42,456 nucleotides of DNA from a virus: IMG/VR virus record IMGVR_UViG_3300032524_000324, positions 1-42,456 of that record; one strand, 5' to 3'. The position numbers were made by a program, and so were the translations under genes. The first letter of the stretch is position 1, and the number at the start of each line of letters is the position of its first letter. Below are positions 10,165 to 42,456 of the stretch, one piece after another. Under the pieces are notes generated by a model. It saw nothing but the letters and a program-made list of their open reading frames with translations. It was not told the origin of the DNA and did not search any database.

Positions 10165-10259
10165 ATTGTCGATTGACCCGACTTCGCCTTGCGGCTCCCG
10201 CCTACGCAACGCTACGGCGCGGGAACACGCCGGGCAAGTGATTGTTGATTGACAAATTG
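10160..10259 (+). repeat. Composite intergenic repeat: GATTGTCGATTGA units flanking a GC-rich hairpin
   Basis: ATTGAATTGTCGATTGA at the left and GTGATTGTTGATTGA at the right flank a GC-rich core (about 10180-10237). The core contains TCCCGC and GCGGGA arms around CTACGCAACGCTACGG. The core resembles REP-type palindromic elements. The layout, two copies of a short repeat around a palindrome, suggests a small mobile or spreading element in a phage gap. No reading frame of note lies in it. Confidence 0.55.
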
Positions 10260-10732: not shown

Positions 10733-11563
10733 ATGGCGAGTTTGAGCAATATTTACAGTTTTAAAGCTAAAGATCTTTTCAGTCCGCAATATACGGCGTT
10801 GACCGAAAAGAAGCCCAGAATCCCGCTGGCAGCAATCATCCATGCACAGACTCCGGCTTATAAGGCTGCTAAAGAAGTATCTGTTGAAAAACAAATGGAA
10901 GAGGAGGCGCTTGGGCAGGAACAAGAGCAGTTTGAAGAGGAGATGAAGCTAAGGAAAGCGGAGCAGGCGGAGACCGCGGCGTATCATACCGAAGCTCAAA
11001 AACAGGCTGAAAAAGCAACAAAGGTTTCCGGGGCCAGTGTAGGAGCCGCGACAGGTGCGATAGTAGGATATGCCGCCGCGGGTGGTGGCGCTGCCGCCGG
11101 AGCCCAAGCCGGAGCCCAAGCCGGGACGGCGGTGTCACCAGGAGTCGGCACGGCAGTGGGAGCGGTTATTGGCGGTGTTCTCGGTTATGTAGCCAGCGGA
11201 ACGGTTTTATGCACGGAACTGCATCGCCAGGGGTTATTGCCGGATGAAATTTACCAGGCGGACTGTGAGTACGCCAAGAGCATACCGGAGGTTGTAAAGA
11301 TCGGTTATCGGATATGGGCGCGTTATCTGGTTTTGGCAATGCAGAAAAGCAAGCTGGTTACCAGGCTGCTGACTCCCCTGGTCCGCGCCTGGGCCTATCA
11401 GATGGCCTATAAAATGGGTGTAGTAGAGAAAGGCAGCCGGTTGGGCGCCCTGCTTGAATGGGCCGGTGTGCCAATCTGTAAAATGATAGGTGAAACAATC
11501 GTAAAGAATCTGTCGATCATCGATAGCGCAAAAAAAAGGTATTTTAACTTTAATTTAATTTAG
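10733..11563 (+). CDS. Glycine-zipper internal virion protein (276 aa)
   Basis: Residues about 50-95 form a charged coiled coil. Residues about 100-160 are a long Gly/Ala stretch with GxxxG spacing and a small tandem GAQAGAQAG, typical of membrane-inserting segments in ejected phage proteins. Residues about 160-230 match a block seen in many phage proteins: CTELHRQGLLPDEIYQAD, then RIWARYLV, KSKLVTRLL and WAYQMAYKMG. The protein most likely enters the cell envelope during DNA ejection. It forms one operon with its neighbours. Confidence 0.7.
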   Translation: MASLSNIYSFKAKDLFSPQYTALTEKKPRIPLAAIIHAQTPAYKAAKEVSVEKQMEEEALGQEQEQFEEEMKLRKAEQAETAAYHTEAQKQAEKATKVSGASVGAATGAIVGYAAAGGGAAAGAQAGAQAGTAVSPGVGTAVGAVIGGVLGYVASGTVLCTELHRQGLLPDEIYQADCEYAKSIPEVVKIGYRIWARYLVLAMQKSKLVTRLLTPLVRAWAYQMAYKMGVVEKGSRLGALLEWAGVPICKMIGETIVKNLSIIDSAKKRYFNFNLI

Positions 11564-21500: not shown

Positions 21501-24500
21501 GATAGGGCCGCCAGTGTCTCCGGGTCAGTTCAGTATTACGCTTTTAGGGATAAGGAGTTTGTTCCGGTTGAGGGTAAAAAAGTTAAGGAGATTGATGGCT
21601 TTGATGCTTTTTTAAATAAGTACAATGACCGGTGGGAGGTTATTGAAGCCCGGAGCGGCCTTTCGATGGGATCTGGTGAGACTCAGGAAAAAGCCATTGA
21701 TAAAGCTTTGGAAAACATAAATCGGTTAGGGATAGACCATGTTAACAAGTCAATAGAAACTGCTGTTAGTGAAACCGGTGAATCCCCATGGAGTTCCGGT
21801 GGCCACCCTGAATTTTCTACCCGTACAACTCTTGCGGAATACGAATTAACCCAACAGGATATTCAGGATATATACGAAAAAAGAGGTATGCAAGCGGGCA
21901 TCTCCCCTGAAGGCCATGTTTGGGTAAAAACAAAGCCCGGCTATGGATTTGAGGTTCGGCTGGTCGATCATATTTCTGAAGACACTTTGGGGTTTGAAGT
22001 TGGAATCGGCCAGATGCAAAAAGACGGCAAGCTAATTGCCGGAAAATATGAAAATTCTACTATTGAACTGAGAAAAGACGTTGCGGATATATGGGCGCTA
22101 CACCATGAAGAAGGGCACTTGGCTGAAGATATCGGCTTGTTGGCTGCTGCTGATATACGTGTGTTAAATAGTGCTGTGCGGAAGGAAAAGAAAGATGATG
22201 CCTACCGTCCGACCAAGGAAGATCGGGCAAATTGGATTGAATCTAACCTTGAAGCGCGGGAAAAATACAGAGATCGCGGGCGGCTTTTCCGGGTTCTTCA
22301 GAAGATCAGGGATTTAATCGATGCGCTGGTGAATCTTGCCGAAAGAACAACCTCCAAGAGCGTTCTCAGGGGCTTCGAGACCGGAAAGCTATTTGAGCGT
22401 GAAGGCAGACCAACAGTTGCGGAAGCTGTCAAAAAAAAAGGGCCGCTGTATAAGGTAATTGAGCCCGGACCGGTGATGGGCAAGCAAGCCCTGGATGATA
22501 TTGAAAAGGATCGATCTTTTGCTAATAGGATATTTGAACAAAGGGATGTCGGAGTAAAAGAGGCTGAATTAGAGACCCAGGAGCTGCAAAAGGAAGTTCA
22601 GCGGCTGGCCGGACCCAAAAGCCGGCGGCGTTTCGCTCCTTTTGCTTATGACAAAGAGTTGAAGCGGTCTCGGGAGTCGGATCGGCTGGACATGGCCATG
22701 ATGATCTTTCGGGATCTTAAAATTAATCCGGATAAAGCGCAGGAATTTCGGCAATGGGCAAAAGAGGCTCTGGAGAACCCTAAAACGCCGAAGGGCCGCA
22801 AGATCCAGATAAAAGAATATCTGGATATCCTTGATCGAGCAGAGAAGCTCACAGACGAACAAAAGGCCCTGGTGGACGATATCGGCAGGCGCTTTGACCG
22901 GGCGTTTATGATTGCCCAGGCGAATAAGGTGGTGAGCAGATTTCTTGATCACTATGTGCGCCGGGTGTGGAGTTTGCCCAAAGGCAAGGAAAGCGATTTC
23001 AGGTCTTCAGGCGCGGCATACGGCTTTAAGACCTTTACTACGGCCAAGATGCAGCGCAAATTTGAGACCATCCTGGACGGCTGGACGGAGGGGTATGATC
23101 TGAAAATTAAAGGGTTAACCAATTCATACGGCGCGTATATTGCCGATCTGGAAGCTATTCTGGCAAACAAGGATTTTATTGTTCAGGGTTATAGCACCGT
23201 CGATACCGAAGGTCGGCATTTGTTTTCAACATCCAGAAAAGGTCCATATAAAGATTACGCGCCTTTGAAGGCTCCGGGATTTAAAGTATGGGAATGGGCC
23301 GGCCGGGTTGAAACCGAAATTGCGCCGGATGAATCGAATGCCTTGCTGGTGGATGATTACGGCAGAAAATTCTTTTTCGGTGCCGTGGAACGGGAACCCG
23401 AAACGTGGGCCGTATTTACAATCGATGAAGATGGCAACCGGGGCAACCGGGCGCTGCGAGCTTTTTTAGATCAGAAATCGGCAGAGGAATTTGCCGAGAG
23501 AGTAGAAGAAGAGTCGAAGCCTTGGGCGGTTTATAAAATCGACGATGAAGGCAACCGTGGCAACCAGGCCCTGCGGGTCTTTAAGGATCAGAAAGCGGCT
23601 GAAGAATTTGCCGGAGAAAAGGATTTTGAAACCCATATCGAGCATCGACCGGCCAAGGAAATTGAAACTCATATCGAGTATCGACCTGCTAAAGACATTG
23701 CCGACGCCTGGGAAGAACGGCAACTGTATGCCCCTAAACAACTGGCGGAGATCATCAACAAAATGACCGCCGGGGATCGGCTGTTTCCTCAGACACCGGC
23801 CCTGGAGTCTCTGACAAGATTTAACATCGGGCTAAAAGCCTGGATCTTGTTGTCGTCATTCTTTCATCATATTGCCGGAGCCAGATCATGGACGCTCGGT
23901 GTACACCACGGATGGAAAGCCGGCCAGGAATTAAAGGACCCGGTTACCGGTGAAACATATACAGCGTCCGGCTGGAATCCTGTAACTGCGTTTAAGTCGG
24001 GGATGAAAAAAATCGAGGATCGAGCGCCAATTGTCTTTCTGGGGATAAAAAACGGCCTTACCATAGGGGAATTACAGGACTGGTCGGAAGCCTTGTTGCG
24101 AGACCGCAAGAACGTTGCCGAACGGCTGGCTAATTATCTGGGAATGAAAAAGACCGGCCAGGCCATAGCACACGTCAGTTTTTTGCGAGAGAAATTCACA
24201 GACAGCCTGTTTAAAAAATATTTTGCAGGGCTCAAGGCCGAAGCGTTTGTTATGGAATACATCCATGAACTACAAAAGGCCCAGACCGCACATCTTGAAA
24301 AGGGAATACCGCCTCCGGATGTAAACAAAATTGCCGAACAGGTCGCGAGATTGATAAATGCCGACTTCGGCGGGCTGCACTTGCAGCGCATGGGTCGAAA
24401 CCCTACCTTGCAGAAAATATTGCGCCTTTTATTGCTGGCTCCGGACTGGACAGAAAGTAACTTCAGGACTGTCACCGGATTGATACCGGGACTCAATGAA

Positions 24501-25469
24501 TGGATTAGCAAAGCGGTCGGAGATGTAAAGCCGCCGCCGGGCATGGATAAAATATTCCGTAAATTCTGGGGCCGTGTTGCGTTACGGATCACCCTTTCGA
24601 CGATCTTGATACAACTCCTTTTGAACGGATGGGACGACACTAAGGAATTCTACAAAGAACAGTTGTTGTCAGATCAATGGAAAAAATTTCGATGGTTGGG
24701 AGTTGATATCAGCAAGCTTTATGAGGCTCTGGGGATTGATCTGGAGGGCAAGCGCAAGACGTTTTCAATCGGCGGTCACTTTTTCGATCCGCTGAAGCTG
24801 GTAGACCCCCCGAGATTGATCAAACATAAGGGATCTCCGATAGTTCGGGTAGGCGAGGCGCTAAAAAGCGGTACGGACTGGCGAGAGCGACCGTTTGTTT
24901 CAGCCACAGAGCTGCTGACCGGCAAAAAGACGGTGAAGGCGTCTCCTTACGAAGCTAAAGAGCAGTTTTTAAATAGGCTGCCAGCAACCATCGTCAATCA
25001 AATTGTTAATCTTCAGCCGGTTCAGGTGGGCTACTGGCTGCGTTATCTGCAAGGGGAAGAAGATGCATTGTCAGCTTTGTTGCAGAGCGCCGGGATGCAC
25101 ATGCATACGGCCTGGCCACCGAAACTTGAAGGTCCGATTACACCTGCCCAAGAAGGCGATCCGGTTTTTGATGCCATCCAGGATCTGATTAAATCCGAAG
25201 CGTTGCACATGGGTGCGCCGTCAAGACGAATCACCGCGGCCGGGATACCAAGGAAACTGACAGCGGCCCAATACAAAGAATATTTACAGGAATCGAGCGA
25301 TATTGTCCGGCGTAGGCTAAAAGATTTGATAGGCAGCGATCGCTGGAGCCGAAAGACCCCTGAGCAAAGGGCCGCAATAATCGAAAAGGTTGTTAAATCG
25401 GCACGGAAAAGAGCCCGGCAAAAATTGAAAAAACGTTACTGGAAACCCGGAATTAAAGAAGCGGCATAA
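12552..25469 (+). CDS. Giant polyvalent protein: methylase, SNF2 helicase, zincin, LPD-type domains (4305 aa)
   Basis: This one frame covers 30% of the window. Residues about 60-340 are an internal-virion-protein-like part with hydrophobic Gly-rich segments (about 166-195 and 315-335). Residues about 1340-1490 are an N6-adenine DNA methylase: VLEPGAGVGH at 1361-1370 binds SAM and NVPF at 1429-1432 is the catalytic loop. Residues about 2090-2660 are an SNF2-type helicase: GVGTGKT at 2104-2110, DEVH at 2267-2270, QRDGRIIRQ at 2602-2610. A zincin follows with HEEGH at 3185-3189. The C-terminus has hydrophobic helices, an LAPDWTESNFR motif and a basic end, as in LPD38-type proteins. The architecture fits the polyvalent and DarB-like proteins that enter with phage DNA and protect it from restriction. 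A low-complexity linker lies near residues 1105-1220. Peptide processing by the zincin is possible but not shown. Confidence 0.88.
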   Translation: MNKTVQKWFDDPEFKALPLSEKEKALTFFFDREIAGKDAEGFGRLPSTDQRRVRNNFVEMNLAPNRPAPPSRGLLSDIMVSGGRAAAGVPEMFLHGAAGVDELVERHVLPEDGGFDLKKWARAKARDIEGFKEEKLPLSKETLTGGPRSWITGGLESAGTSLSIKLPATLTGFALAGPLGAVIGWLSGVPLFSMAQYDQSLQEHLKAGVSEPDAEEAAIFEAASEGGFELLSDVIEVVTLGTGGILSAPGKEALKKGAVKVLKGAWKQSLKKGAAVAGAETLGELSNIGVQAEIRAQTGIGDQRFWQAIKENLGSVTVASLIFGTLGGGLNLTNAHITRKLLEDQTADPERRLAAVKEVANALNKSSPEVSRQWTAGAVDAVTVGEPIKLTIEKPVDTAKVAAEKEKTLKKNQPLASNAEAVADIGKKTQKPIVSEIETPPRTPSPEMSRGAGAAMAASAEPVEDPLMVQPRSMEELEAMLSPGQRQTIKDRAEEMAVEDAATDDITREYARAVIAKHKAGIPSPEAEVEPGDEKVEPAKVKFIITAQDKANLKELGYSDDQINKMKPNEAQRIIEAGKALETKPQETVGAGAVKPSAVQILTGKRSKKAEIKIDEPKAGGGEPPEVSTATQILAGKKPETKKEKALREYTAFVVGLTAEEKGIAGDLIVEAPEFALQQKLKIEKKLTEADEKEPWKIPLKEFVKTRPVEKYRRVIKKEDFWHGLHSESVRQAVESGDPVPDEVLKDYPNLQKKKSEKLKPNEIGRNIYGERVGEDEGGRYTVTDSGIRAYAARPITPTRAGVISAPYTAQELFDKGSESYLSREEYESFTAEAKGEEKTPEKTKETNKDEWKRVPGGALVSTFGNYLISGEPGQYRLSDESNGQALGTLTNLETAKTKASNHWIKANKDKKEETEKPINTISFEKIDEKTEKPTEPLTRSKKDTIIGQKEPTKKPASEMTADDLLAEWDLQAAETEPAPEPEAKEKPVELVVTSLVSGKTETISLPEPLTAKDKAKETADHLKNAFNAFKDINKILGEEGAVGELDPKKWEQIRPLLKLAWDEVLAAGKSGKEFVALALKNLRSEGRPYFEKFVREEVGKEGQDERTNTGTNVLDEGEADLAAGKRTAGGQKSVSEKPERTAQEVAGKSPTSGIEAPETDAGRGSGRGPDRRDSAEHGGPERGSTVRAAAGSAGTEDQGLVGESELAPEDRSHVIEEDDVIVPKGPESRIQANIKAIQLLKKLQTEDRNPTPDEKKILAQYVGWGAFSQKVFNREFTDYLKNFADYRSPESHFYNDSGKKYLAWKKKYGTRLHPALGGLLSDEEWKSAEESTINAHYTSRSVIKSMWAMAERLGFKGGTVLEPGAGVGHFFGLMPQGLAENSSLFGVELDTITGGILEKLYPQAHIQTTAFEKSKGIADNSIDLTITNVPFANYRVIDKKHPDYSGWSLHNYFFGRSLSLTKPGGLVVAITSSWTMDAKSNGKVREYLASKADLVGAIRLPNTAFAENAGTEVVTDILIFRKKDSGNVSAGNDFRVTHRLETKQSKQIVEKLDAARKRYAKLNVMPKGRKRTKAEKETLAAARVEVDNLLGELQGLYGVNEYFIQNPEMVLGEHSMKGTMYAGDSYTVTPTGNLEEQIQEIVQRLPENIAGEGTDISKIKPVLYADLDSKEGTLTQKDGKIYLVDNGRMVEPFYLDTKGKKQKVAGVRLKRLKSYLELRDLTTNLFEVMADVDTTDDDITYLQDKLNKKYDAYVKKYNHFGHTSNSYIRKVDNDFAVVDALEIETKDGPEDFVKAPIFNTRTIFPFVEPTTAESIEDAANLSIIYRGSIQPAYIASLTGTENIDQVKSDLIKKGLAFIDPTTGLMEAKDLYLSGNVKKKLKAAKIAVEENPEYKHNIKALEAVVPEDMDIAFIEFRLGSSWIPTDVVQGFLKEVLEVNAKVEYAKTDVSSRWLVSREGYGNWDNVKNRETYGTEDNYGTSLIEAALNLKRITIKKKMRNEAGNEVTYEDKDASKENNLKIQEINTEFVTWAKTHEKWAPKLAEVYNEEKNGHVLRKHSAPVFKDAEGNKTLHYPNASTAITLREHQRIAVSRALQESVLLAYGVGTGKTYIFITAAMEMRRIGTARKPIIVVHNQTIDQYRQSFKVLYPGAKVLIPNYHQRSSRMRKKTLVSMATGDWDAIVLPQSFFDGIANDPARETAFVEEQLDMIDEQISDAESEDGKNSLTVKELVKLKKQKRQKLEALLDRRKDEAVIFEQMGVDALLIDEVHAYKRSEFYTKMNKVKGIDSGSSQRSTSLILKSEFVREKTGGKNVITATGTPISNTMAELWTMLRYVRPDLLEEYGVTLFDDFAGAFGNVVEGTEETASGYKLVDRFAEYVNGPELLTMFYSGADVRLTKDANLNLPKMKGGKPHVVVSEKSPELTRYIKDIIRQWKAWENLTGREKMKNRHVPLVLYGRAKKAAIDLRLIDPDYYKDDQNSKISKAAENIYKVWKETARNKSTQIAFLDVFRDRAKNERFNGQKDLKEKLMATGVPSKEIAIFSDAGTSETKQSRMKESIRNGDIRVVIGSTAKLGIGVDIADKMIGAHHINVPDRPMDIEQRDGRIIRQTNENEEVEIYHYCTKETLDSVMFGRLMKKQRYADQVLTGDVEGRTFKDPYSVEQASFAEFAAASSGKAGKLLFEKNELLAAENKYKVAQTAHIRRVSNARKNVNQIPNEINALEDSLSEENKLKKHVEDTFEGVKLGTVTFDGETMDRTDAVKKIEERVRAIADGWKKQLEGMAFGDYQKLVESQAGKYPGSFFHDEVRETVRAKAGGIDIKTILSANTNWKRGEKPSQKIKFNKEWGGEEEQVLRRIRVAYFYNGKNLDRANIDPDTLGHNFTRKFNDMLRVVAARPGITQKSIDKSKNDLAEFKNISKEAFKYKQELSHAQKRIADIDRELVNLSNEETEGMPITAQETTKEIEKEAEVAEDKPQEEIEKKDRAASVSGSVQYYAFRDKEFVPVEGKKVKEIDGFDAFLNKYNDRWEVIEARSGLSMGSGETQEKAIDKALENINRLGIDHVNKSIETAVSETGESPWSSGGHPEFSTRTTLAEYELTQQDIQDIYEKRGMQAGISPEGHVWVKTKPGYGFEVRLVDHISEDTLGFEVGIGQMQKDGKLIAGKYENSTIELRKDVADIWALHHEEGHLAEDIGLLAAADIRVLNSAVRKEKKDDAYRPTKEDRANWIESNLEAREKYRDRGRLFRVLQKIRDLIDALVNLAERTTSKSVLRGFETGKLFEREGRPTVAEAVKKKGPLYKVIEPGPVMGKQALDDIEKDRSFANRIFEQRDVGVKEAELETQELQKEVQRLAGPKSRRRFAPFAYDKELKRSRESDRLDMAMMIFRDLKINPDKAQEFRQWAKEALENPKTPKGRKIQIKEYLDILDRAEKLTDEQKALVDDIGRRFDRAFMIAQANKVVSRFLDHYVRRVWSLPKGKESDFRSSGAAYGFKTFTTAKMQRKFETILDGWTEGYDLKIKGLTNSYGAYIADLEAILANKDFIVQGYSTVDTEGRHLFSTSRKGPYKDYAPLKAPGFKVWEWAGRVETEIAPDESNALLVDDYGRKFFFGAVEREPETWAVFTIDEDGNRGNRALRAFLDQKSAEEFAERVEEESKPWAVYKIDDEGNRGNQALRVFKDQKAAEEFAGEKDFETHIEHRPAKEIETHIEYRPAKDIADAWEERQLYAPKQLAEIINKMTAGDRLFPQTPALESLTRFNIGLKAWILLSSFFHHIAGARSWTLGVHHGWKAGQELKDPVTGETYTASGWNPVTAFKSGMKKIEDRAPIVFLGIKNGLTIGELQDWSEALLRDRKNVAERLANYLGMKKTGQAIAHVSFLREKFTDSLFKKYFAGLKAEAFVMEYIHELQKAQTAHLEKGIPPPDVNKIAEQVARLINADFGGLHLQRMGRNPTLQKILRLLLLAPDWTESNFRTVTGLIPGLNEWISKAVGDVKPPPGMDKIFRKFWGRVALRITLSTILIQLLLNGWDDTKEFYKEQLLSDQWKKFRWLGVDISKLYEALGIDLEGKRKTFSIGGHFFDPLKLVDPPRLIKHKGSPIVRVGEALKSGTDWRERPFVSATELLTGKKTVKASPYEAKEQFLNRLPATIVNQIVNLQPVQVGYWLRYLQGEEDALSALLQSAGMHMHTAWPPKLEGPITPAQEGDPVFDAIQDLIKSEALHMGAPSRRITAAGIPRKLTAAQYKEYLQESSDIVRRRLKDLIGSDRWSRKTPEQRAAIIEKVVKSARKRARQKLKKRYWKPGIKEAA
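15865..16173 (+). CDS. Overlapping 102-aa gene inside the polyvalent protein linker
   Basis: In the +1 frame relative to the giant gene, an ATG at 15865 has AAAGGAGGGG just upstream, one of the best ribosome binding sites in the window. The product looks like an ordinary folded protein: an N-terminal helix with FWMRARLIWLLANEP, a charged helical middle with RLQEKAQQAVLKRRKLM, and a C-terminal helix ending in KIRDWLESQN. The giant protein's own frame here is a low-complexity Gly/Arg/Glu/Ser linker, as expected when another frame carries the constraint. It begins right after a domain end (RPYFEKFVREEV), which hints that two genes flanking this one were fused. I know no family for it. Confidence 0.6.
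   Translation: MNEQIPAPMFWMRARLIWLLANEPQEVKSLYQKSPNVLRKRLQEKAQQAVLKRRKLMQEGDLAEDQIDEIVLNMVAPSEGVPSEPLPEAQELKIRDWLESQN
23406..23618 (+). repeat. Tandem duplication inside the giant gene (39-aa period)
   Basis: Two copies of a 30-residue unit lie 117 bases apart. They start at Trp3619 and Trp3658 and share WAV, IDEDGNRGN or IDDEGNRGN, ALR, DQK and AEEFA. Just after them an 11-residue unit, ETHIEHRPAKE, is repeated as ETHIEYRPAKD. The base sequences have diverged, so the duplication is not fresh. Confidence 0.8.
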
Positions 25470-25485: not shown

Positions 25486-25689
25486 ATGACAAACGAGAGT
25501 TGTAAAGATTGCAGGGCTCACAGTGGTGTTTGTAAGGACATAAAGCACCTTGAAAAAGGAAATGAAGATCAGTGGAAGGAGATTAATGCCATGAAAAATT
25601 GGATGATAGGAACCCTTGCATCATCGGTTCTTAGTTTGATCGGAATTGTTGTTATGCTTTTTTTGAAATTAACCGGAAAAAGCCCATGA
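25486..25689 (+). CDS. Small single-TM protein, XhlA/holin-like (67 aa)
   Basis: The N-terminal half has four Cys-type positions (CKDC and VC), then a charged amphipathic helix. Residues about 40-62 form one membrane helix, followed by a short basic tail. This layout resembles haemolysin XhlA and other small lysis-associated membrane proteins. Its ATGA overlap with the amidase gene and the 3TM protein that follows place it in a lysis cassette. It probably helps the endolysin reach or cross the membrane. A spanin-type role is less likely, as it has no lipobox. Confidence 0.65.
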   Translation: MTNESCKDCRAHSGVCKDIKHLEKGNEDQWKEINAMKNWMIGTLASSVLSLIGIVVMLFLKLTGKSP

Positions 25690-26156
25690 AACACGAATAC
25701 ATCATCCTGCATCATTCGCTGACTAAAGACAGCAAGACCGTGTCCTGGGGCGCGATTCGCAGATTCCACAACCGGGACCTGGGCTGGCTTGATATCGGCT
25801 ATCATTTTGGCATTGAGTTGCTGCGTGACGACTACGAGATACTTGTTGGCCGCATGATGAACGTTGCCGGGGCTCATTGCCCCCAGGGCGGCATGAATCA
25901 AAAATCCCTGGGCATCTGTTTTGTGGGCAATTTTGATGTTGCTTCGCCCACCAAGGAGGTGTGGCGGCTCGGAATTCGGCTTGTTAGCTCCCTGCTGAGC
26001 ATATTTAATCTTCCCATCGAGAACGTCTATGGCCATCGAGATTTTAACCCCAAGAAATCATGCCCTGGAAAGATGTTTAGTGTCGAAGCGTTCAAAAAAG
26101 ATTTAATCATTTTACCATTAAAAAAAGATGAAATGCTACGGGACGGAGGATATTGA
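25686..26156 (+). CDS. Endolysin: N-acetylmuramoyl-L-alanine amidase, T7 lysozyme type (156 aa)
   Basis: The ATG overlaps the stop of the previous gene. The protein belongs to the amidase_2/PGRP family and cuts the bond between muramic acid and L-alanine in peptidoglycan. The zinc ligands line up with T7 lysozyme H17, H122 and C130: H9 in ILHHS, H117 in GHRDF and C126 in SCPG. The conserved Tyr is in DIGYHFGI. Length is normal for the single-domain form, and there is no signal peptide, so release needs a holin. The last 25 residues are a Lys-rich extension. Confidence 0.92.
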   Translation: MKHEYIILHHSLTKDSKTVSWGAIRRFHNRDLGWLDIGYHFGIELLRDDYEILVGRMMNVAGAHCPQGGMNQKSLGICFVGNFDVASPTKEVWRLGIRLVSSLLSIFNLPIENVYGHRDFNPKKSCPGKMFSVEAFKKDLIILPLKKDEMLRDGGY

Positions 26157-26157
26157 T

Positions 26158-26676
26158 ATGGGTACTCCACTAATCGGAGACGTTATAGAGGCTGTAACCA
26201 ATATCGGCGGCAAGATAGCCGATAAGATCTGGATGGATAAAGAGGCCCAGGCTCAGCTTTCTTTTGACAAAGAAAAGTTTAGCCAGGAAATCGGCCTGGC
26301 CGTTAAAAAGCTGGCCCAGGATGGCAATCTGGCCGAGTTGGAGGCCGTGTTTAAAGAGGCCCAGGCTCAGAGGGATTTTGTTTTAAAACAGTTTGGATCC
26401 GCCGAAACGCTAAAAGGTTTTGTTATCGGCCGGATCATCCTGTTAGGGCGGGCATCGATCCGTTGGATTATCGTCGGATGGGCAGCCTATATGGCCAACA
26501 AGGTTATTAAGATGATATTGACAGACAAGGTTATCTTGGCCCTGGCCGGCGGTACGCTTTCCGGTTCCATGGCCTGGGTTGTAACCCTGATTGTGATTTG
26601 TATCCTGGGTATTCCACTGTCATATGTAACCGGTGTTAGCATCGAAAAGCTGTTAAAATCCAGAGGGGTTATTTAA
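26158..26676 (+). CDS. Holin-like 3TM membrane protein (172 aa)
   Basis: The ATG at 26158 is preferred over 26128, because GGAGG lies upstream and the earlier start would overlap the amidase end by 29 bases. Residues 1-90 are a charged helical cytoplasmic part with KEAQAQ repeats. Residues about 95-170 hold two or three membrane helices. This is the layout of the 3TM holins used for gene-transfer-agent release (GTA_holin_3TM). It follows the amidase directly, as a lysis partner would. The C-terminal tail is short and basic. Confidence 0.72.
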   Translation: MGTPLIGDVIEAVTNIGGKIADKIWMDKEAQAQLSFDKEKFSQEIGLAVKKLAQDGNLAELEAVFKEAQAQRDFVLKQFGSAETLKGFVIGRIILLGRASIRWIIVGWAAYMANKVIKMILTDKVILALAGGTLSGSMAWVVTLIVICILGIPLSYVTGVSIEKLLKSRGVI

Positions 26677-26860
26677 ATGATTAATGCAGCGACTTGTTGT
26701 TTTAGAGAATATGCTTGACTTATTTCTTAATTATATTATATTTCATTCCACTTTTTGGATGTGTGTAAGTTGTTGAAAATACGTACTCCAAAAAGATCAA
26801 ATGGAGAGCAAAATACACTTTAACTGATTTAAAATCAACAGCTTAGGCAAGAAAGACTTT

Positions 26861-26885
26861 GCCGAGGTAGCTCAGTCGGTAGAGC
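26861..26885 (+). pseudogene. 5' fragment of a tRNA gene (Phe-like)
   Basis: The 25 bases equal the acceptor 5' strand, GCCGAGG, the linker TA and the complete D-arm of a bacterial tRNA, closest in my memory to tRNA-Phe. The match stops exactly at the end of the D-arm. No anticodon arm, T-arm or acceptor 3' strand follows. A terminator begins 16 bases later. It is best read as an integration or deletion scar at a tRNA attachment site. Confidence 0.7.
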
Positions 26886-26901
26886 GATTGGGCGTGAATA
26901 C

Positions 26902-26930
26902 AGGCGTTTCCAGGCGGAAACGCCTTTTTT
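26902..26930 (+). terminator. Rho-independent terminator
   Basis: A perfect 10-bp stem (AGGCGTTTCC with GGAAACGCCT) has a four-base loop and five further T bases after the stem. It would end transcription coming from the lysis genes 225 bases upstream, or it is the original terminator of the truncated tRNA gene. Confidence 0.88.
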
Positions 26931-26932
26931 AT

Positions 26933-27123
26933 TTAGAGACGTATGCGTTTGGTGTGAGAACCGTTTGCCATTACAAAAAAGCGACAAAATAGACAGGCGT
27001 TGTTGGAGTAGACTTTTATCATTTAAAAACAAACCTTTAGCGCCATGCGGGATTCGTGGAAAACTGTGGAGCGGACCGGAAGGTTTGTCAGGGTTTCTAT
27101 ACTTTCCGGATGCATTTTCAGAA
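26933..27123 (-). pseudogene. Remnant of a serine recombinase C-terminus
   Basis: Reading leftwards, this stretch translates to the same C-terminal region as the intact recombinase at 31597-33045: PESIETLTNLPVRST, then ALK, IKVYSNNA and NGSHTKRIRL, ending in TAA. An in-frame TAA replaces a Ser codon between the two halves. In one 81-base block 67 bases match the intact gene without gaps. Upstream of about 27123 the likeness fades. It is a decayed copy from a second element and not a duplicate of the present integrase, as the differences are spread evenly. Confidence 0.85.
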
Positions 27124-27280
27124 CAATTTGCAGTCACGATGCAGTTATGTTATCTTGTATTTCCGGAGATTAAAGATTCAGGCAAGACGAGCGAGTTCAC
27201 CTAAAAGGCTCGCTCGCCTCCCTGACATCTACCTCTCAGAAAGGTACCAGTTATCTTCAAAATGATAAAGGGGGATATTC
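27124..27280. other. Gap before the first cassette gene: weak repeat copy and hairpin
   Basis: Positions 27147-27188 share TTATGTTATCTT and TTCAGGCAAG with the repeat copies at 27522 and 29268. Around 27186-27219 GACGAGCGAG faces CTCGCTCGCC, forming a 9-of-10 stem with a loop of about 13 bases. No gene is seen. AAAGGGGGA near 27267 is the ribosome binding site of the next gene. Confidence 0.45.
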
Positions 27281-27517
27281 ATGAATTGGGAATATAAAAG
27301 AGTGCTTATTCCTGTCAAGGAAACTGTGGGTAAAAAATATGATAAGCACGGCAGAGATAGAGATCCTGAAGCTGCAGATTCCGTAGAAAATTTATTAAAC
27401 ATGTTGGGTTCTGAAGGATGGGAGCTTGTAACTGCAGTAAATCTAGATAGTGGTATTGATTCACCCCGTGCGCCAGTAGACGGTGTAATTGAATACTTAT
27501 TTAAACGAAAAAAATGA
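27281..27517 (+). CDS. DUF4177-like small protein, cassette gene 1 (78 aa)
   Basis: The N-terminal NWEYKRVLIPV, the central LLNMLGSEGWELVTAV and the C-terminal EYLFKRKK follow the DUF4177 pattern (WEYK...LN.LG.EGWELV...FKR). The function of that family is unknown. AAAGGGGGA precedes the ATG. It is the first of five same-strand genes that look like integron cassettes. Confidence 0.75.
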   Translation: MNWEYKRVLIPVKETVGKKYDKHGRDRDPEAADSVENLLNMLGSEGWELVTAVNLDSGIDSPRAPVDGVIEYLFKRKK

Positions 27518-27521
27518 AGCC

Positions 27522-27592
27522 CAAAATATTTACGATTGTCTTACGTTATCTTCAATGTTATTAGCGAGATATTGCCTATCGGTTCAGGCAAG
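27522..27592 (+). repeat. 71-bp cassette-boundary repeat, copy A
   Basis: It begins CAAAATATTTACGATTG and ends GGTTCAGGCAAG. It aligns without gaps to 29268-29338, with 51 of 71 bases identical. Both copies lie between genes of the same island. The ends, GTCTTAC and GTTCAGGC, are roughly inverted, as in a degenerate attC site, but the fit is weaker than at 28350, 30221 or 30958. Confidence 0.55.
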
Positions 27593-27641
27593 GGATCATC
27601 AGTTTTACAAGTCAATATAAAAAATAAGAAGAAATATAGAA

Positions 27642-28343
27642 ATGACTGGGGATATAAGTTGGGCTAAGATTTTTAAAAACTCAAAGCAAGGGTTTTATAA
27701 AGACCATTTGTGGGATACCATTTTATGCCTGTTAGCAATTTGTTTAGGACCAGCCGCAGGAGTCATAATGAACAGCAAAAAATCAATTATCATTGGGGCT
27801 GCAATCGGCCTAACCGTTTTGATTTGGGTCTGTGCTTTATTCCTTATTAAATCTGCCAAAATAGAATCAGAAAGCACTCCAAAAGAAAAGACGCCTAAAA
27901 AGCAAGAAGAATTAACCCTGTTGTATCTTTTTGAAAATGACTTCAATAAGTTATTGCGTTCTGGGCAAACTGCATATTTCTTAGGCAGCAACGGAAAGAA
28001 AATAGATTTTAAAACAAAAGAATATTTTGATTTTGAAGCGCAATCAAAATTCATTGGTTTTTATATTCCGTCTGCACCAGAAACGTTTGAAGTGTTAGTT
28101 GGTTTGCCAGAGGTATATACACAATTTAGTTCTGCCGGAAAAATGATGGTAGAATCTGGCGCTCCTGGTTTACAGCCAGTAAATACAGATGAATTAAAAT
28201 TTTCTGGAAGAATTTTCATTTATCATGAGTATCCAATTCTTGAATCCCAAAAAAGAGAACTTTATACACTTTATGAGAAACATGGCTTAGCTCCACAATT
28301 CAGAGGTTCTGACTACCTTTTTAAGAAAAAAGAAATTGAATAA
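27642..28343 (+). CDS. Two-TM membrane protein, cassette gene 2 (233 aa)
   Basis: Two membrane helices lie at about residues 24-43 and 48-68, separated by a short basic turn (NSKK). A Lys/Glu/Pro-rich linker follows, then a soluble alpha/beta domain of about 150 residues with FLGSNGKKIDF, FIGFYIPSA and GRIFIYHEYP. I recognise no family. The ribosome binding site is AAGAAG only. The gene is AT-rich and flanked by the repeat at 27522 and an attC-like site at 28350, so it is probably a mobile cassette and not a phage gene. Confidence 0.65.
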   Translation: MTGDISWAKIFKNSKQGFYKDHLWDTILCLLAICLGPAAGVIMNSKKSIIIGAAIGLTVLIWVCALFLIKSAKIESESTPKEKTPKKQEELTLLYLFENDFNKLLRSGQTAYFLGSNGKKIDFKTKEYFDFEAQSKFIGFYIPSAPETFEVLVGLPEVYTQFSSAGKMMVESGAPGLQPVNTDELKFSGRIFIYHEYPILESQKRELYTLYEKHGLAPQFRGSDYLFKKKEIE

Positions 28344-28349
28344 AAAACA

Positions 28350-28419
28350 CATTAACAATTGCATTAAGAGGGATTGCCAGCACTGACGCGCTGTCAACCG
28401 CTTATGCAAAACGTTATAT
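28350..28419 (+). other. attC-like recombination site A
   Basis: The R''-type box CATTAAC at 28350 faces an R'-type box GTTATAT at 28413. Inside, TTGCATTAAG pairs with CTTATGCAA, and GATTGCCAGC pairs with GCTGTCAACC at 8 of 10 positions. Nested imperfect arms and AAC/GTT ends define integron attC sites. It lies just after gene 2 and just before gene 3. Confidence 0.7.
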
Positions 28420-28442
28420 TTCTCAAAAAATAGGAGGATGTA

Positions 28443-29174
28443 ATGGGTTTCTCTCCTAAGATAGCAGAAAGCGCTTTGTTGGGTAGTGGTAGATGCTGTT
28501 GCCTATGTCACAAATTCTGTGGAACGAAAATCGAACTGCACCACATAGTTCAGACGCAGGAAGGTGGAGACAATAGTTATGATAACTGTATCCCTTTATG
28601 TTTCGATTGCCATGCTGAGGTCAAGGCTTATAATCCTAAGCACCCAAAAGGTAAAAAATATTCTATTACCGAATTGAAAGCACATAGAAATCGATGGTAC
28701 GAAAAAGTTTCAAAGAGCCATGGTATAACAGCAAATCCAGATTTTGTAGAAGTTGACCAAAAGGTTTTTGGTGAATTGCGTGATATTCTACCTAGTGATA
28801 AGGGAGCAATTCCATTTCTTCGATTCCATGATTATGGGGCATCCTACCCCTGTGACATTCATTATAATCTGCACAAATTTGCCCATAATTGCATCAAACC
28901 AGAATTTGAATTTTTCGATATGGACCTGGAAGGCTGTAGGGCTAAACTCGTCAAGAATATAAATGATTTTTTAGATGCGGTTGGGCACTATGTCTATACG
29001 CTTGATAGTAGATCTGATAGATGCCGAGTGCCAAAAGAGTGGTCCTATGGTTCTAAAGAGGAACAGAAGGAATGGCATAAAGCAGTGGAGCTTCTTAATA
29101 AGCTTAAATCGGAGGTAATTGAAACTTACGATGAACTCATTAGGATGTGTAGAAAAAAGTTGGTGGTTCACTAA
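28443..29174 (+). CDS. HNH endonuclease-domain protein, cassette gene 3 (243 aa)
   Basis: A strong AGGAGG precedes the ATG. Residues about 17-60 form an HNH nuclease: CCCLCHKFCG, IELHHIVQ with the catalytic His pair, the Asn in YDNCIPLC, and FDCHAEV. Four or more Cys would bind a structural zinc. Residues 90-240 are helical and of no known family, perhaps giving target or partner specificity. Such HNH proteins cut DNA and occur in defence systems and integron cassettes. The attC-like site ahead of it supports a cassette origin. Confidence 0.8.
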   Translation: MGFSPKIAESALLGSGRCCCLCHKFCGTKIELHHIVQTQEGGDNSYDNCIPLCFDCHAEVKAYNPKHPKGKKYSITELKAHRNRWYEKVSKSHGITANPDFVEVDQKVFGELRDILPSDKGAIPFLRFHDYGASYPCDIHYNLHKFAHNCIKPEFEFFDMDLEGCRAKLVKNINDFLDAVGHYVYTLDSRSDRCRVPKEWSYGSKEEQKEWHKAVELLNKLKSEVIETYDELIRMCRKKLVVH

Positions 29175-29529
29175 TTATACATAACCTGTGCCTGGATGCA
29201 GACGGGTTAAAAACCGCGCCCGCTGAAGAGCACGATTCCTGCCTTGACCCTATCAAAAATCAAGCCTCAAAATATTTGCGATTGCCTTAACGAATCTTCA
29301 ATGATATTGATTTGACGATGATTGTTGGTTTAGGCAAGACATCTTGCATTGAGGATTACACAGCAGACCGTGCACTATTGCGCAATTTTCTATTCAGCTT
29401 TGAAAATTTATCAGCAAAATTATTGAAACTTGGCCTGCAATATGGTGCTATCAGGATTCCCGCAATATGGTGCTATGGGGAATCCCGCCTATTGAATATG
29501 CGGGCTTCCCACTAATACCTGTTGGGCAG
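29175..29529. other. Intercassette region: degenerate attC, repeat copy B, hairpin
   Basis: The first part (29179-29250) has a CATAAC start, AGACGGG facing CCCGCTG, and a TTGACC end like that of the site at 30958. It looks like a worn attC. The 71-bp repeat copy B is at 29268-29338. GCAATATGGTGCTAT occurs twice (near 29437 and 29462). GGGAATCCCGC pairs with GCGGGCTTCCC near 29478-29510, and GTTGGGC (29521) just before the next start resembles an R' box. No gene is convincing here. Confidence 0.5.
29268..29338 (+). repeat. 71-bp cassette-boundary repeat, copy B
   Basis: Second copy of the repeat at 27522 with the same length. Its inner part, GCCTTAAC to GTTTAGGC, has inverted ends (7 of 8) and imperfect inner arms (AATCTTCAATGAT against ATGATTGTTG), closer to an attC site than copy A. 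Confidence 0.6.
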
Positions 29530-30234
29530 ATGGTGGTAAAAATGACTTTCAACGATCAGAAACGTGAAAAATTAAAATTTCGAATCGCTCTTAGTTCTAT
29601 TTTCTCTGTAATCCGAGATGACATGGACGACTTAGAGGAGCTAATAGAATTAACAGAAAATTACCTAAAGAAAGAGGCAAAAAGATTTGGCAAGCGTGTT
29701 TCTAAGGAAATAGAAAAATTAACGGATGAGGAAGAAAAGGAAGAGATAATCGGCTGGTATGCAGATGATTTTAATCGTCTCGAAAAGGTTTTTCCTATCA
29801 TCCAACGCCGATCTTTATTTCTAACTCTAATGTGTAAAACAGAGGCAAACCTTCTTCTTGCCTGTAGAATATGCAAAAGTGCTTTCAACCTACAAAAGCC
29901 ATTTAAAAAGAAAGGAAGAGACAGGCTTATAAATCAAGCGCTTTCGTACCTTCAAGAGAATCTGACAATTCGTAATCGGTACATTCAAACCAACTGGCAG
30001 TTCATTCAAGAATTATGGACAATCAGGAACGCGCTCGTTCATAATGATGGAATACCGAAAAAGTCTGAAATAGAACAGGTTAAGAAATTTTGTGATCCGA
30101 TACCTTCCTTAGAGGTAGACGATAAAAATCGTATTATCTTGAAGGATGGTAGCATTCAAATTGCACATCATGAGGTCAATCAGTTCTTTATGAGATTAAG
30201 GGAAGAAATTGAAAGAAATAGCCCAACCATTTAA
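29530..30234 (+). CDS. HEPN-like protein, cassette gene 4 (234 aa)
   Basis: I chose the ATG at 29530, just after the GTTGGGC box. The ATG at 29542 is also possible, while an upstream start at 29467 would run through the hairpin region. The protein is helical and charged. The motif IRNALVHNDG near residue 175 contains RNxxxH, the active-site signature of HEPN ribonucleases, within a helical context that fits the fold. HEPN proteins act in toxin-antitoxin and anti-phage systems. The substrate cannot be told. The C-terminus overlaps the attC-like site that follows. Confidence 0.65.
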   Translation: MVVKMTFNDQKREKLKFRIALSSIFSVIRDDMDDLEELIELTENYLKKEAKRFGKRVSKEIEKLTDEEEKEEIIGWYADDFNRLEKVFPIIQRRSLFLTLMCKTEANLLLACRICKSAFNLQKPFKKKGRDRLINQALSYLQENLTIRNRYIQTNWQFIQELWTIRNALVHNDGIPKKSEIEQVKKFCDPIPSLEVDDKNRIILKDGSIQIAHHEVNQFFMRLREEIERNSPTI

Positions 30235-30287
30235 TAAACCCGACCGGGCGATAAAACGCCGCCCGGCGCGTTATCAAGCCGTTAGGC
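30221..30287 (+). other. attC-like recombination site B
   Basis: GCCCAAC at 30221 and GTTAGGC at 30281 are standard R'' and R' boxes. TTTAATAAAC faces CGTTATCAAG as the L arms, and CCGGGCG pairs perfectly with CGCCCGG. The 67-bp length is typical. It overlaps the stop of gene 4 and ends 10 bases before gene 5, as in integron cassettes. Confidence 0.82.
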
Positions 30288-30297
30288 ACTTAGCACC

Positions 30298-30963
30298 ATG
30301 AAATATGACGACATCGTTAAGGAGTTTATTGATTTTGTGAACCTTCAAGTCGGGGTATACATGAATTCAATAGCAGGGTTTTCCGACGCTAAGATGCAGA
30401 TGGAACGGCAGGTTGCAAGGGTATTAAGAGCACAGTCTCAAAAGAAGGATGCAAGAGGCGATCAGGTTATTACCCATCAGAGCTTTGAAGACCCCAAAAG
30501 CCCAGATGCTGTTCATTCAAGAATAGTCACGGCAGATAAGTTCATCGAAGAAAACTCTCCAGCAGGTATTAATCAACGGCAGCTGTCCTATTCTGTCATC
30601 GTATTTATTTACACATATTGGGAAGCCGATATAAGGCCAAGGCTCGCAAAGGCTTCCGGAGTAGATGAGAAAAATGTTACGAGTGACATTATGGGTGATC
30701 TTCGGTGCATTCGTAATTCTATACTTCATACCAAAGGAGTTTTCACATCCGAGTGGCACAGAAAGCTTGTGGTCCTCAAGGATTGCTTCACTGTAGATGA
30801 GCAAATCGAAATAAGCTACGAGCTAATGCATCAAATTTTCGTGAAGATAAAGCAGGGGTGTGCCAAGCTAATCTTTGAATGGCTTGGTGTTGATCCTGAG
30901 GGTAGGTTTGATATTGATCAACTCAAAGGGTTTGCTATTCAAAAGGGGCGAAAAAATGCCTAA
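30298..30963 (+). CDS. HEPN-like protein, cassette gene 5 (221 aa)
   Basis: The ATG lies 10 bases after an attC-like site, the usual place for a cassette gene. The protein is helical and soluble. CIRNSILHTKG near residues 141-151 contains RNxxxH, the HEPN signature, preceded by a YWEADIRPRL helix found in similar cassette and RiboL-type HEPN proteins. It shares no obvious overall similarity with gene 4, so the two are separate acquisitions. A role as a ribonuclease effector is plausible. No antitoxin partner is evident. Its end overlaps the last attC-like site. Confidence 0.65.
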   Translation: MKYDDIVKEFIDFVNLQVGVYMNSIAGFSDAKMQMERQVARVLRAQSQKKDARGDQVITHQSFEDPKSPDAVHSRIVTADKFIEENSPAGINQRQLSYSVIVFIYTYWEADIRPRLAKASGVDEKNVTSDIMGDLRCIRNSILHTKGVFTSEWHRKLVVLKDCFTVDEQIEISYELMHQIFVKIKQGCAKLIFEWLGVDPEGRFDIDQLKGFAIQKGRKNA

Positions 30964-31056
30964 CAAGTCGTTCAACTACACTGCGGCGTTTCGCGCCTCC
31001 GTCGGACAGCCAAAAGCACGGCTTCGCCGTGGCTGCCGGTTAACTCAGCGTTGACC
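30958..31056 (+). other. attC-like recombination site C
   Basis: GCCTAAC at 30958 overlaps the stop of gene 5, and GTTGACC at 31050 is the far box. AAGTCGTTCAAC faces GGTTAACTCAGC as the L arms. CACGGC and GCCGTG close an inner stem with a TTC loop. Length 99 bp. It is the last site of the array. Confidence 0.82.
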
Positions 31057-31150
31057 CAATGCTTGATGCCTGCCTTGAACCATGAACCCAGGTCATCTCA
31101 CGCGCGGTGTTGATTGGGATTCTTAATCTTTGCTTTATTTAATCGAAACA
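31057..31150. other. Gap after the last attC-like site
   Basis: It contains CCTGCCTTGAACCATGAACCC, close to CCTGCCTTGACCC at 29238 after another worn site and to the GGTTCAA repeat family. No gene or terminator is clear. Confidence 0.35.
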
Positions 31151-31393
31151 TTATTTATACATGATGGGGATTTTGAATTTTTGGCGGATGCGGCTGGTGG
31201 TTTCGATGCCGTCGATCCGGGCGTACAGATCGGGGTCAATGACAACAACATCCGGCTGGTTTTTTTCAATTTCAGATAAGAGCCTTTCTTTGCAGGGCAC
31301 ATAAGTATCTATTTTAAACCACTGGCTGATAAATCTGCATTTTATGCCCTGCTTGTGACCCGCTTCAAATGACATCACTTTTAATCCTTCCAT
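31151..31393 (-). CDS. Truncated response-regulator receiver-like protein (80 aa)
   Basis: The ATG at 31393 has AGGAGGG upstream; the ATG at 31438 is less likely. The C-terminal half reads PDVVVIDPDL, then DGIETTSRIR and KIPIMYK, as in receiver domains, where the Asp after VVI accepts phosphate and a DGIE block follows. The protein ends where the fourth strand of a receiver domain would. The remaining strand, helix and output domain are missing. The first 45 residues do not show the usual acidic pair. It may be a decayed host gene or a small stand-alone regulator. Confidence 0.6.
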   Translation of the reverse strand: MEGLKVMSFEAGHKQGIKCRFISQWFKIDTYVPCKERLLSEIEKNQPDVVVIDPDLYARIDGIETTSRIRQKFKIPIMYK

Positions 31394-31516
31394 GAGATCC
31401 CTCCTGTCAATTTTTGTATATGTATATCCAAGATTCATGCCAAAAAGGATAAGTCTTTATTCTTATTGAAGTTATGGTTTTATGAATGAATTAAATCCAT
31501 TTGTGGGATATCGATT

Positions 31517-31557
31517 TTGCACAAGATGATGTGCTTCATGCACATTATTTTGTGCAT
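31517..31557. other. Nested palindrome beside the integrase gene, possible att site
   Basis: TGCACAA at 31518 mirrors TTGTGCA at 31550, and TGTGC at 31530 mirrors GCACA at 31540, giving a 40-bp imperfect palindrome. Large serine integrases use att sites of about 40-50 bp with imperfect inverted halves, usually beside the integrase gene, whose end is 40 bases away. A second pair, TTGAC at 31565 and GTCAA at 31578, lies next to it. The rest of 31394-31596 shows nothing else. Confidence 0.45.
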
Positions 31558-31596
31558 TTCGGAGTTGACCTATTGCTGTCAACAAACTTCATTTAC

Positions 31597-33045
31597 CTAA
31601 AGGCGTATGCGTTTGGTGTGGGAGCCGTTTTCCATGACGGGAAAGCGGTAATATAGGTAGGCGTTTTTGGAATAGACTTTTATCTTGCTAAGGTAAGCTT
31701 TCAGCGCCAGGCGGCATTCTTGGAAATCTGTGGATCGGATTGGGAGGTTTGTCAGGGCTTCGATGGTTTCCGGATCCCAGGCAGGATTGTTTTGTTCGGT
31801 GTTATTTATTTCGTCTTGATGTTCCTGGATCGAGATGTTGATCTCCTGAATGCGCTCTTTTGCTTCTTGAAATTGTATAACCCCTTCCTCGATGGCTTTG
31901 ATGAGCCGTTTTTTTCGTTGCCGTTCTTTTTTTAATTCCTTTTTAAGAGCTGATAATTTGCGAAACATATCCGGACTGGATTGATTCGCAGAACGAAAGG
32001 CTGTTTCAAGAATGTCTGTGCCGGCCAGGGTTTTATCGATGTTGGAGAGGATTCTGTTTTCCAGTTTTTCGCCCGGCATCATGCGGCTGTCTTTGCAGGG
32101 GCCTTGGACATTGTGGATCGATATGCAGCGGTAATAAAGCCGGTCGTAGAGTTTGCCGCTTTTTCGGATTTTACGGTCGTGCCAGGCTTTCAGGGTTTTG
32201 TCGCAATATCCGCACCGGAGGATTCCCAGGCCGGTAAGCAGGTGCGTGGCGACGGTTGATTTTCCGCCGGCGGCGTTGCGGTTCTTTTTGGCCGCGATGA
32301 TTCTATCCCGGTCGTTTTTCTTTATGATGGGCGACCAGTTGGCCTTTACAACCTGGTCATCGATTTGGATTTGACCGGTATAGAAAAGAAGCCTGGAAGG
32401 TTCGAGGATGCGGCGAATCATTCGGGGCGTGTATTTAGGTATAATTCTGGAAATCTCTCTGGGGGAATGGTCTACTGACAGGGTGAGTATTTTTTTGAGG
32501 TCTGTGAGCTTCTGGTCATCGATTTCCAGGCGTTTCTTGCTGCGGTTATAGGTATAGGGTATGGGCGGAGTTCCGCCGGTCCAGTGGCCTTGCAGTCGTT
32601 TTTCGCGGATCCCCCGCATGCAGCGTTCACGAATAGTCTCTTTTTCGTACAGACTGATCGTGCCTTTGATGTTGAACTGGAGGCGGTCGTTGCGGTTGTT
32701 GAGGTCGTAAACCTGGTCCGGGGTGACGACTTTAATGTGGTGCTCCAGGCAGATATCGACAATCAGCGCCCTTTCTGAGTCGCGGGCAAAGCGGGTGAAG
32801 CGGTCGATATCTACGATCAGGATCCGGTCGAAGCGTTCGGCCTCGGCGTCTTCGAGGAGCTTGCTGAGTTGTGGCATAAAGCGCAGGGCCTCACCGGAAA
32901 CGCCGTCGTCCACGTACATGCGATAAACGGGCCAGCCATTGGCAGCGGCCAGGGCCGGGAGAATCCTTTTCTGGGATTCAATGGTGTGCTTTTCTTTTTG
33001 CTTTTCCGTAGATACTCGGCAGTATATGGCGCAGGAGGATTGCAT
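31597..33045 (-). CDS. Large serine recombinase / phage integrase (482 aa)
   Basis: Residues 1-150 are the resolvase catalytic domain with YCRVSTEKQ, placing the nucleophile at Ser12, plus ILIVDIDRFTRFARD. A recombinase domain with IREKRLQGHWTGG and the DNA-binding region follow, about 160-260. A zinc ribbon (CGYCDKTL and YRCISIHNVQGPCKD) lies near 280-325 and a coiled coil (KKELKKERQRKKRLIKAI) near 365-415. This is the domain order of large serine integrases, which join attP and attB without host factors. Start choice follows the resolvase consensus. It is last in a leftward operon with the repressor. A decayed relative lies at 26933-27123. Confidence 0.93.
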   Translation of the reverse strand: MQSSCAIYCRVSTEKQKEKHTIESQKRILPALAAANGWPVYRMYVDDGVSGEALRFMPQLSKLLEDAEAERFDRILIVDIDRFTRFARDSERALIVDICLEHHIKVVTPDQVYDLNNRNDRLQFNIKGTISLYEKETIRERCMRGIREKRLQGHWTGGTPPIPYTYNRSKKRLEIDDQKLTDLKKILTLSVDHSPREISRIIPKYTPRMIRRILEPSRLLFYTGQIQIDDQVVKANWSPIIKKNDRDRIIAAKKNRNAAGGKSTVATHLLTGLGILRCGYCDKTLKAWHDRKIRKSGKLYDRLYYRCISIHNVQGPCKDSRMMPGEKLENRILSNIDKTLAGTDILETAFRSANQSSPDMFRKLSALKKELKKERQRKKRLIKAIEEGVIQFQEAKERIQEINISIQEHQDEINNTEQNNPAWDPETIEALTNLPIRSTDFQECRLALKAYLSKIKVYSKNAYLYYRFPVMENGSHTKRIRL

Positions 33046-33915: not shown

Positions 33916-34407
33916 TTATCCCGAGGCGACTTCACCTTTTTCCTCCAGTGCTTTTTCCAAGGCAGCGATGCGATCTTCCAGTTGGTGTATTTTTTGGTTC
34001 TGGTCTTCGAGTTTGTCCTCCGTTTCAATTGCGTGATAGAAGGCATTTATATTTGCCGTCAAAGCGGTTTTGTATACTGTGTTTGAGGTTAATATTTTAT
34101 GGGTTTTTCCAAGCATATTCCAGTCTTGCGGATCTGCCTGGGGAGTCCAGTCTCCGTGTAGGCCATAATCTCTTCCAGGTTCTTTTATTTTTTCTTTATA
34201 TTTTGGACCTTCGCCAGTAATAAGCCAGTCCAAGTTCCCGTCAGAGTGTAATTCAGAGCATTTCTTAATGATTTCGGGGGTCAATGTCCCTTTGCGTTTG
34301 CGGTTTGAGAAGTTTTGTGCTTTTAAACCAAGAAGTTGCGCAAGCTCCTTGTCGGTTTTGAAGCCACAAACTTCATTCATTCTGTCGGTTACTTTATTAT
34401 TTTTCAT
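33916..34407 (-). CDS. CI-type phage repressor without peptidase domain (163 aa)
   Basis: Residues 1-65 match the Bac_CI_repressor helix-turn-helix family known from phage 186: KTDKELAQLLGLKAQNFSNR, then GNLDWLITGEGP. Residues about 115-160 form a coiled coil (QIHQLEDRIAALEKALEE), probably for oligomerisation. There is no LexA/S24 peptidase part, so RecA-driven self-cleavage is not expected. Induction may need an antirepressor. It faces the early operon across a 78-bp control region with a sigma-70-like promoter, and heads the leftward lysogeny operon. Confidence 0.85.
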   Translation of the reverse strand: MKNNKVTDRMNEVCGFKTDKELAQLLGLKAQNFSNRKRKGTLTPEIIKKCSELHSDGNLDWLITGEGPKYKEKIKEPGRDYGLHGDWTPQADPQDWNMLGKTHKILTSNTVYKTALTANINAFYHAIETEDKLEDQNQKIHQLEDRIAALEKALEEKGEVASG

Positions 34408-42379: not shown

Positions 42380-42456
42380 ATGAGTAAAGGCCAAAAAAAC
42401 GTGTATGTGTGTCAGTTGTGTGGCGGGGAAGTAGTAACGGTAGACGCTGATGAAGG
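42380..42456 (+). CDS. Desulforedoxin-like Cys protein (partial, 3' end outside)
   Basis: GGGAGTTGAG lies ahead of the ATG. The visible 25 residues include VYVCQLCGGEVVTV, close to the first half of desulforedoxin and the N-terminal domain of desulfoferrodoxin (YKCELCGQVVKV), in which four Cys bind iron. The second Cys pair would lie beyond the window. A plain zinc ribbon is the alternative. Confidence 0.5.
   Translation, partial: MSKGQKNVYVCQLCGGEVVTVDADE

Follow-up and report, generated by a model that had tools for sequence, protein, structure and literature searches.

A probable integron cassette array between the lysis genes and the serine integrase of a temperate phage

Cassette arrays in phages

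Integron gene cassettes are swappable gene units that bacteria store in integrons. CALINs, rows of attC-bounded cassettes without an integron integrase, also occur in phages: Qi et al. 2023 detected 17 CALINs in 10,705 phage genomes, in both temperate and virulent phages, and five of the six phage attC sites that were tested recombined with attI1 through IntI1 (PMC9892861). In the temperate Vibrio anguillarum phage Va_90-11-286_p16, a piece of the host chromosomal integron has been captured, and excision at attC sites was proposed as the route (PMC9892861).

The array described here shares with these CALINs the attC-bounded cassettes and the lack of an integron integrase, but it belongs to an uncultured temperate phage, lies beside a serine integrase and includes one cassette for which the link to a bacterial array is resolved to the base. 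It resembles Va_90-11-286_p16 as a temperate phage with a captured integron piece. However, the Vibrio piece contains intI and Vibrio-type sites, whereas the present array is devoid of intI, and its edges are marked not by attC direct repeats but by remnants of an integrase and of a receiver domain. The closest bacterial counterparts are two contigs (L001 and L061) of the gammaproteobacterial MAG RIFCSPLOWO2_12_47_11, which share cassette 5 (88% protein identity) and the HNH cassette family with the phage but are bacterial, come from a genome with integron integrases and otherwise contain other cassettes. The initial annotation regarded such an array as an uncommon route for moving cassettes; a claim that the route is new would find less support, given the phage CALINs published in 2023 (PMC9892861). 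The present array is a further phage CALIN of a kind already known, and its tracing is better than usual: a phage and a bacterium have one integron cassette in common, and the crossover can be located to a single base, which supports phages as cassette vehicles.

Phage context of the array

The window, i.e., the whole stretch of DNA that was analyzed, is the 42,456-base IMG/VR virus record IMGVR_UViG_3300032524_000324. Its left 26.7 kb encodes tail genes, a 4,305-residue protein and a lysis set. In the right part, the minus strand encodes the serine integrase and a repressor of the CI type; early genes and a DNA methyltransferase follow. The array is located between the end of the lysis genes and the serine integrase. 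The 4,305-residue protein is encoded by a single open reading frame (12552-25469) that is the largest gene of the phage. The phage genes and remnants around the array are as follows.

25686-26156, +: amidase at the end of the phage late operon (Pfam Amidase_2, E 2e-15; PHROG amidase)
26128-26676, +: holin at the end of the phage late operon, 25686..26676 (PHROG holin)
26862..26888, +: tRNA-like 5' half (gccgaggtagctcagtcggtagagcg), read from the sequence; possible old attachment site
26928..27111, -: remnant of a serine integrase 3' end, about 60 codons with one in-frame stop (direct repeat D1 and translation)
31151..31438, -: response-regulator receiver-domain remnant, bacterial-type DNA (Pfam Response_reg, E 2.5e-5, partial)
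31597..33045, -: the phage's own large serine integrase, intact, 482 aa (Pfam Resolvase, E 1.6e-29; PHROG integrase, E 1e-76)
33916..34407, -: CI-type phage repressor (Pfam Phage_CI_repr, E 4e-10)

A second IMG/VR contig, 3300033064_006589 (G572) from sample 3300033064, places the window in a circle. The last 26,959 bases of G572 (18566-45524) are 99.9-100% identical to window positions 1-26959, and its first 48 bases (1-48) find their unique match in the last 48 bases of the window (42409-42456), with an open reading frame with a cysteine pattern running across the join. Window and G572 together close a circle of ~60,973 bases (about 61 kb), and the 18.5 kb outside the window contributes genes for replication, terminase, a portal-like protein and the major head protein. 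The integrase, repressor and virion genes are thus on the same molecule as the array, as in a temperate phage. Because G572 joins both arms of the window in one circle, the two neighbors of the array are the ends of one phage. Accessory genes of temperate phages usually sit at such a place in the circle. The phage location, which the initial annotation took for granted, is backed by this closure; the array lies in the phage circle, and the second contig settles most of the phage-or-host question.

Could the array nevertheless be host chromosome, either as DNA between two neighboring prophages or as a chromosomal array misassembled onto phage ends? The bacterial scrap around the array (tRNA half, receiver-domain remnant and old integrase end) and the low coding density there are in favor of such an origin, as is the end of the second contig at position 26959. 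Two neighboring prophages were indeed the leading alternative until G572 closed the circle. However, G572 connects the arms at 99.9-100% identity and through a unique 48-base overlap. A chimera would thus require a chance joining of precisely the two right ends, and host DNA between the copies of a tandem lysogen would call for an additional event. We therefore consider a host-chromosome origin improbable.

The window contig is the only one that spans 26960-31597; since G572 reaches no further than 26959, on the border of the array region, the array junctions rest on one assembly. G572, an otherwise identical phage contig, thus ends 31 bases into the integrase remnant of the window, and this end may mark a mixed population of phages with and without the array.

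The edges of the array bear traces of older events. A complete tRNA was not found in the window. A promoter-like TTGACT/TATATT pair (26715-26742) and a terminator-like hairpin (26902-26925) are located on the two sides of the tRNA-like half. Direct repeat D1 links positions 26928-27111 with 31592-31775, the 3' end of the intact integrase, at 78% identity. Duplicated serine integrase 3' ends hence bracket the array, the left copy being the remnant beside the tRNA-like 5' half. Given the receiver-domain fragment, the old integrase 3' end and the tRNA-like half, the edges resemble bacterial flanks in which old prophages have left traces.

Protein scans of viral contigs returned no relatives of the integrase or of cassettes 4 and 5, and none for the right-arm proteins used as queries. 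A DNA pattern from the integrase 3' end led to three contigs, none of which contained an integrase relative and one of which was the overlapping G572. Among 398 genomes of the MAG's phylum, integrase relatives reach only 29% identity, a level that assigns no host.

attC sites and cassette boundaries

Five plus-strand genes at 27281-30963 constitute the array. Their GC content is about 37-42%, versus about 50% in the phage arms. The genes and sites are listed below in order.

27281..27517, +: gene 1, 78 aa, DUF4177-like (Pfam PF13783, E 1.1e-4, below the cut-off); no clear attC of its own
27642..28343, +: gene 2, 233 aa, open reading frame with no Pfam match; good 3' attC, worn 5' boundary
28350..28419, +: attC of cassette 2 (model match 28353-28416; R1 24.3 bits, E 2e-4; bottom-strand fold z -3.7)
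28443..29174, +: cassette 3, 243 aa, N-terminal HNH endonuclease domain (Pfam HNH, E 1.6e-6)
29521..29527, +: R' box GTTGGGC, start of cassette 4; complementary at 7/7 positions to the R'' box GCCCAAC at 30221
29542..30234, +: cassette 4, 230 aa, HEPN-like motif RNALVH (weak Pfam and PADLOC HEPN matches)
30221..30287, +: attC of cassette 4, overlapping the stop of the gene (R1 28.3 bits, E 1.6e-5; fold z -2.5)
30298..30963, +: cassette 5, 221 aa with the HEPN-like motif RNSILH; a copy with 88% identity lies in the MAG array L001
30958..31056, +: last attC of the row, belonging to cassette 5; R'' 7/7 with its own cassette start; not a full R1 match

Rfam has no match in the window, and we therefore built our own attC covariance model, R1, which is distinct from that of IntegronFinder. 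R1 is based on an ungapped alignment of 43 chromosomal attC sites with an R/L stem structure, taken from arrays beside integron integrases in genomes of the MAG's class (Gammaproteobacteria). The variable centers were trimmed from the training sequences, and R1 consequently penalizes sites with a long center. Over both strands of all 42,456 bases, R1 produces two matches only, at 30221-30287 and 28353-28416, which are 1.8 kb apart. Applied to 33 related phage loci (440 kb), the model finds matches only in five contigs of one lineage, where they read as real cassette rows; this confinement indicates a low false-positive rate. The covariance search and the bottom-strand folding suggested in the initial annotation, which named the absence of model hits as grounds for abandoning its idea, thus come out in its favor, with R1 matches at two of the three proposed sites and fold z values of -3.7 and -2.5 for these two.

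The third proposed site, 30958-31056, fares differently, as it lacks an R1 match as a whole (partial only, 6.7 bits) and its inner arms do not outdo shuffled sequences (p 0.18), although its R'' pairs at all seven positions. The R1 failure may be due to the terminal position and the long center of the site. Its R' box, GTTGACC, is odd in comparison with the R' of the excised form, which would be the start of cassette 5, GTTAGGC. This oddity is accounted for by the place of the site as the last in the row, where the outer half of R' is flanking DNA.

The R'' box of a cassette is expected to pair with the R' box that is formed on circularization, i.e., with the cassette's own start. Cassette 5 carries the R'' box GCCTAAC, which is 7/7 complementary to its own start G|TTAGGC, and the R'' box of cassette 4 is likewise fully complementary to GTTGGGC. 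For cassette 3, the R'' trace ACATAAC (29179-29185) is complementary to its own start at six of seven positions, as read by hand. Genes 1 and 2 show no such complementarity. Random GTT/AAC box pairs at such distances match at 7/7 in 0.6% of cases, and the pairing of cassette 4 weighs less than this figure suggests because its start was located after the fact.

Of the two boundaries that the initial annotation called worn, one retains a real trace, the R' box at the start of cassette 4 (GTTGGGC at 29521-29527). No attC is seen at the gene 2 start or at either end of gene 1, and genes 1 and 2 are probably older, worn members of the array. An AT-rich element occurs in two copies that are imperfect by eye, at 27506-27600 and 29262-29345, after genes 1 and 3 (AAGCCYCAAAATATTTRCGATTG...GGTTYAGGCAAG). 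As candidates for degraded attC sites, both copies were rejected, given that they do not match R1 and fold no better than shuffles.

A CALIN is defined here by at least two attC sites within 4 kb and no integron integrase nearby. The array contains two R1 sites 1.8 kb apart and no intI, in agreement with the initial annotation. The window has no PF00589 match, and an IntI query from L026, which did recover its positive control, has no match there or in the first 20 kb of G572. A live integron, in which the phage recombines cassettes with an integrase of its own, is barely credible against this lack of a tyrosine recombinase or IntI relative, even though the attC sites are preserved well enough for a model score and cassettes also occur in a related phage lineage. 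Serine integrases are not known to use attC sites.

Bacterial relatives, route of entry and cargo

In a scan of 84,980 species genomes, cassette 5 had a single close relative, encoded on L001 with 88% protein identity. This contig is a cassette row with toxin-antitoxin genes, a HEPN_RiboL-PSP protein and five attC matches, four of which are strong. The DNA identity between the phage and L001 is 27% to the left and 87% to the right of G|TTAGGC, the attC crossover, and the two copies have a cassette boundary at G|TTRRRY in common. At the sequence level, this is the same cassette in two arrays with different neighbors. The copies differ with a dN of 0.055 and a dS of 0.72 (dN/dS 0.08), which indicates that the cassette 5 protein has been under purifying selection since they parted. 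A further relative with 46% identity is found in another genome with no attC nearby, and thus the family of cassette 5 is not confined to integrons.

An HNH relative of cassette 3 is the first cassette beside intI on L061 (11420-12076, with an attC at 11357-11413), in the same MAG as L001, and another lies between two attC sites in a second bacterial genome (L115). Cassette 4 has no relatives among the 398 genomes; only distant plasmid relatives (25%) were found.

L001 also contains two copies (93%) of a ~165-base element that ends in GGTAATCCACTGTTA, at 390-554 and 3604-3767, each just before a cassette. The element resembles window positions 29440-29527, the DNA just before cassette 4, and is possibly attI-like or another attC class.

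These relatives bear on the view that the genes are simply a fixed moron block of the phage, with terminator-like hairpins at the gene ends by coincidence. Two of the sites do score as terminator-like on the minus strand, and accessory genes are often carried beside attP in phages. However, the R1 matches arise at a low false-positive rate, the cassette boundary coincides with the attC crossover, and relatives of two cassettes lie inside attC-bounded bacterial arrays, contrary to the fixed phage module that the initial annotation had weighed against its own idea. A moron block of this kind is very unlikely.

How did the array come to lie in the phage? The segment is very probably a CALIN in a temperate, podovirus-like phage of ~61 kb, between the lysis genes and the serine integrase, in which cassettes 3-5 are genuine cassettes that arose through attC recombination in an integron of a bacterium. 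The attC sites, the G|TTAGGC crossover common to a bacterial array, the signature of purifying selection in cassette 5 and the closed phage circle support this reading directly. The attC matches, the bacterial-array relatives and the G572 circle also uphold the initial annotation's reading of the array as a CALIN that lies next to the integrase in the phage attP region.

We propose that the phage would have taken up the array as a block with other bacterial DNA. Imprecise excision may have brought the array in, or else recombination with a related prophage already resident; integron recombination within the phage itself is the less probable route. A lysogen would carry the array genes as accessory (moron) genes, and through their intact attC sites the cassettes could pass back to any integron with an integrase active in that cell.

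The nature of the cargo is consistent with a role in defense. The HNH match of cassette 3 is sound as a profile match. Cassettes 4 and 5 both contain an RxxxxH motif and give weak HEPN profile matches, and the arginine and histidine of RNSILH in cassette 5 are kept in two to three aligned relatives, one of them at 45%. The predicted structures of cassettes 4 and 5 have mean pLDDT values of 48 and 40, respectively, and are too poor for comparing folds. The earlier proposal of defense cargo from an HNH and two HEPN-like proteins is less well supported than the array itself, its support coming from the HNH match and the RxxxxH motifs. Defense cargo is plausible; the HNH and HEPN-like products are most likely nucleases against competing phages, and the exclusion of rival phages by the lysogen would be the likeliest use.

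Cassette carriage may extend beyond the present phage. Among about 14 phage records that were chosen by terminase alone, not for attC, one lineage (five contigs, L087-L091) bears a cassette row of its own that differs from the present one and lies elsewhere in the genome, in the early region. A single lineage is too few to claim a rule. It is conceivable, though doubtful, that the phage group is a recurrent cassette carrier, in which members take up different cassettes, keep attC and pass the cassettes between bacteria and integrons, with nuclease cassettes kept for excluding rival phages. This second lineage in the same phage group nonetheless suggests that some phages may act as cassette vehicles repeatedly, and such cases are countable in existing virus collections. 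L110 (IMGVR_UViG_3300022846_000002), which belongs to the lineage of L087-L091, contains small genes flanked by attC (10190-10246, 10527-10591 and 15619-15678), which lie before the terminase, in the early part of the genome. One of its cassette genes (about 15269-15665) is related to a gene that the present phage carries without attC (L069 677-1132).
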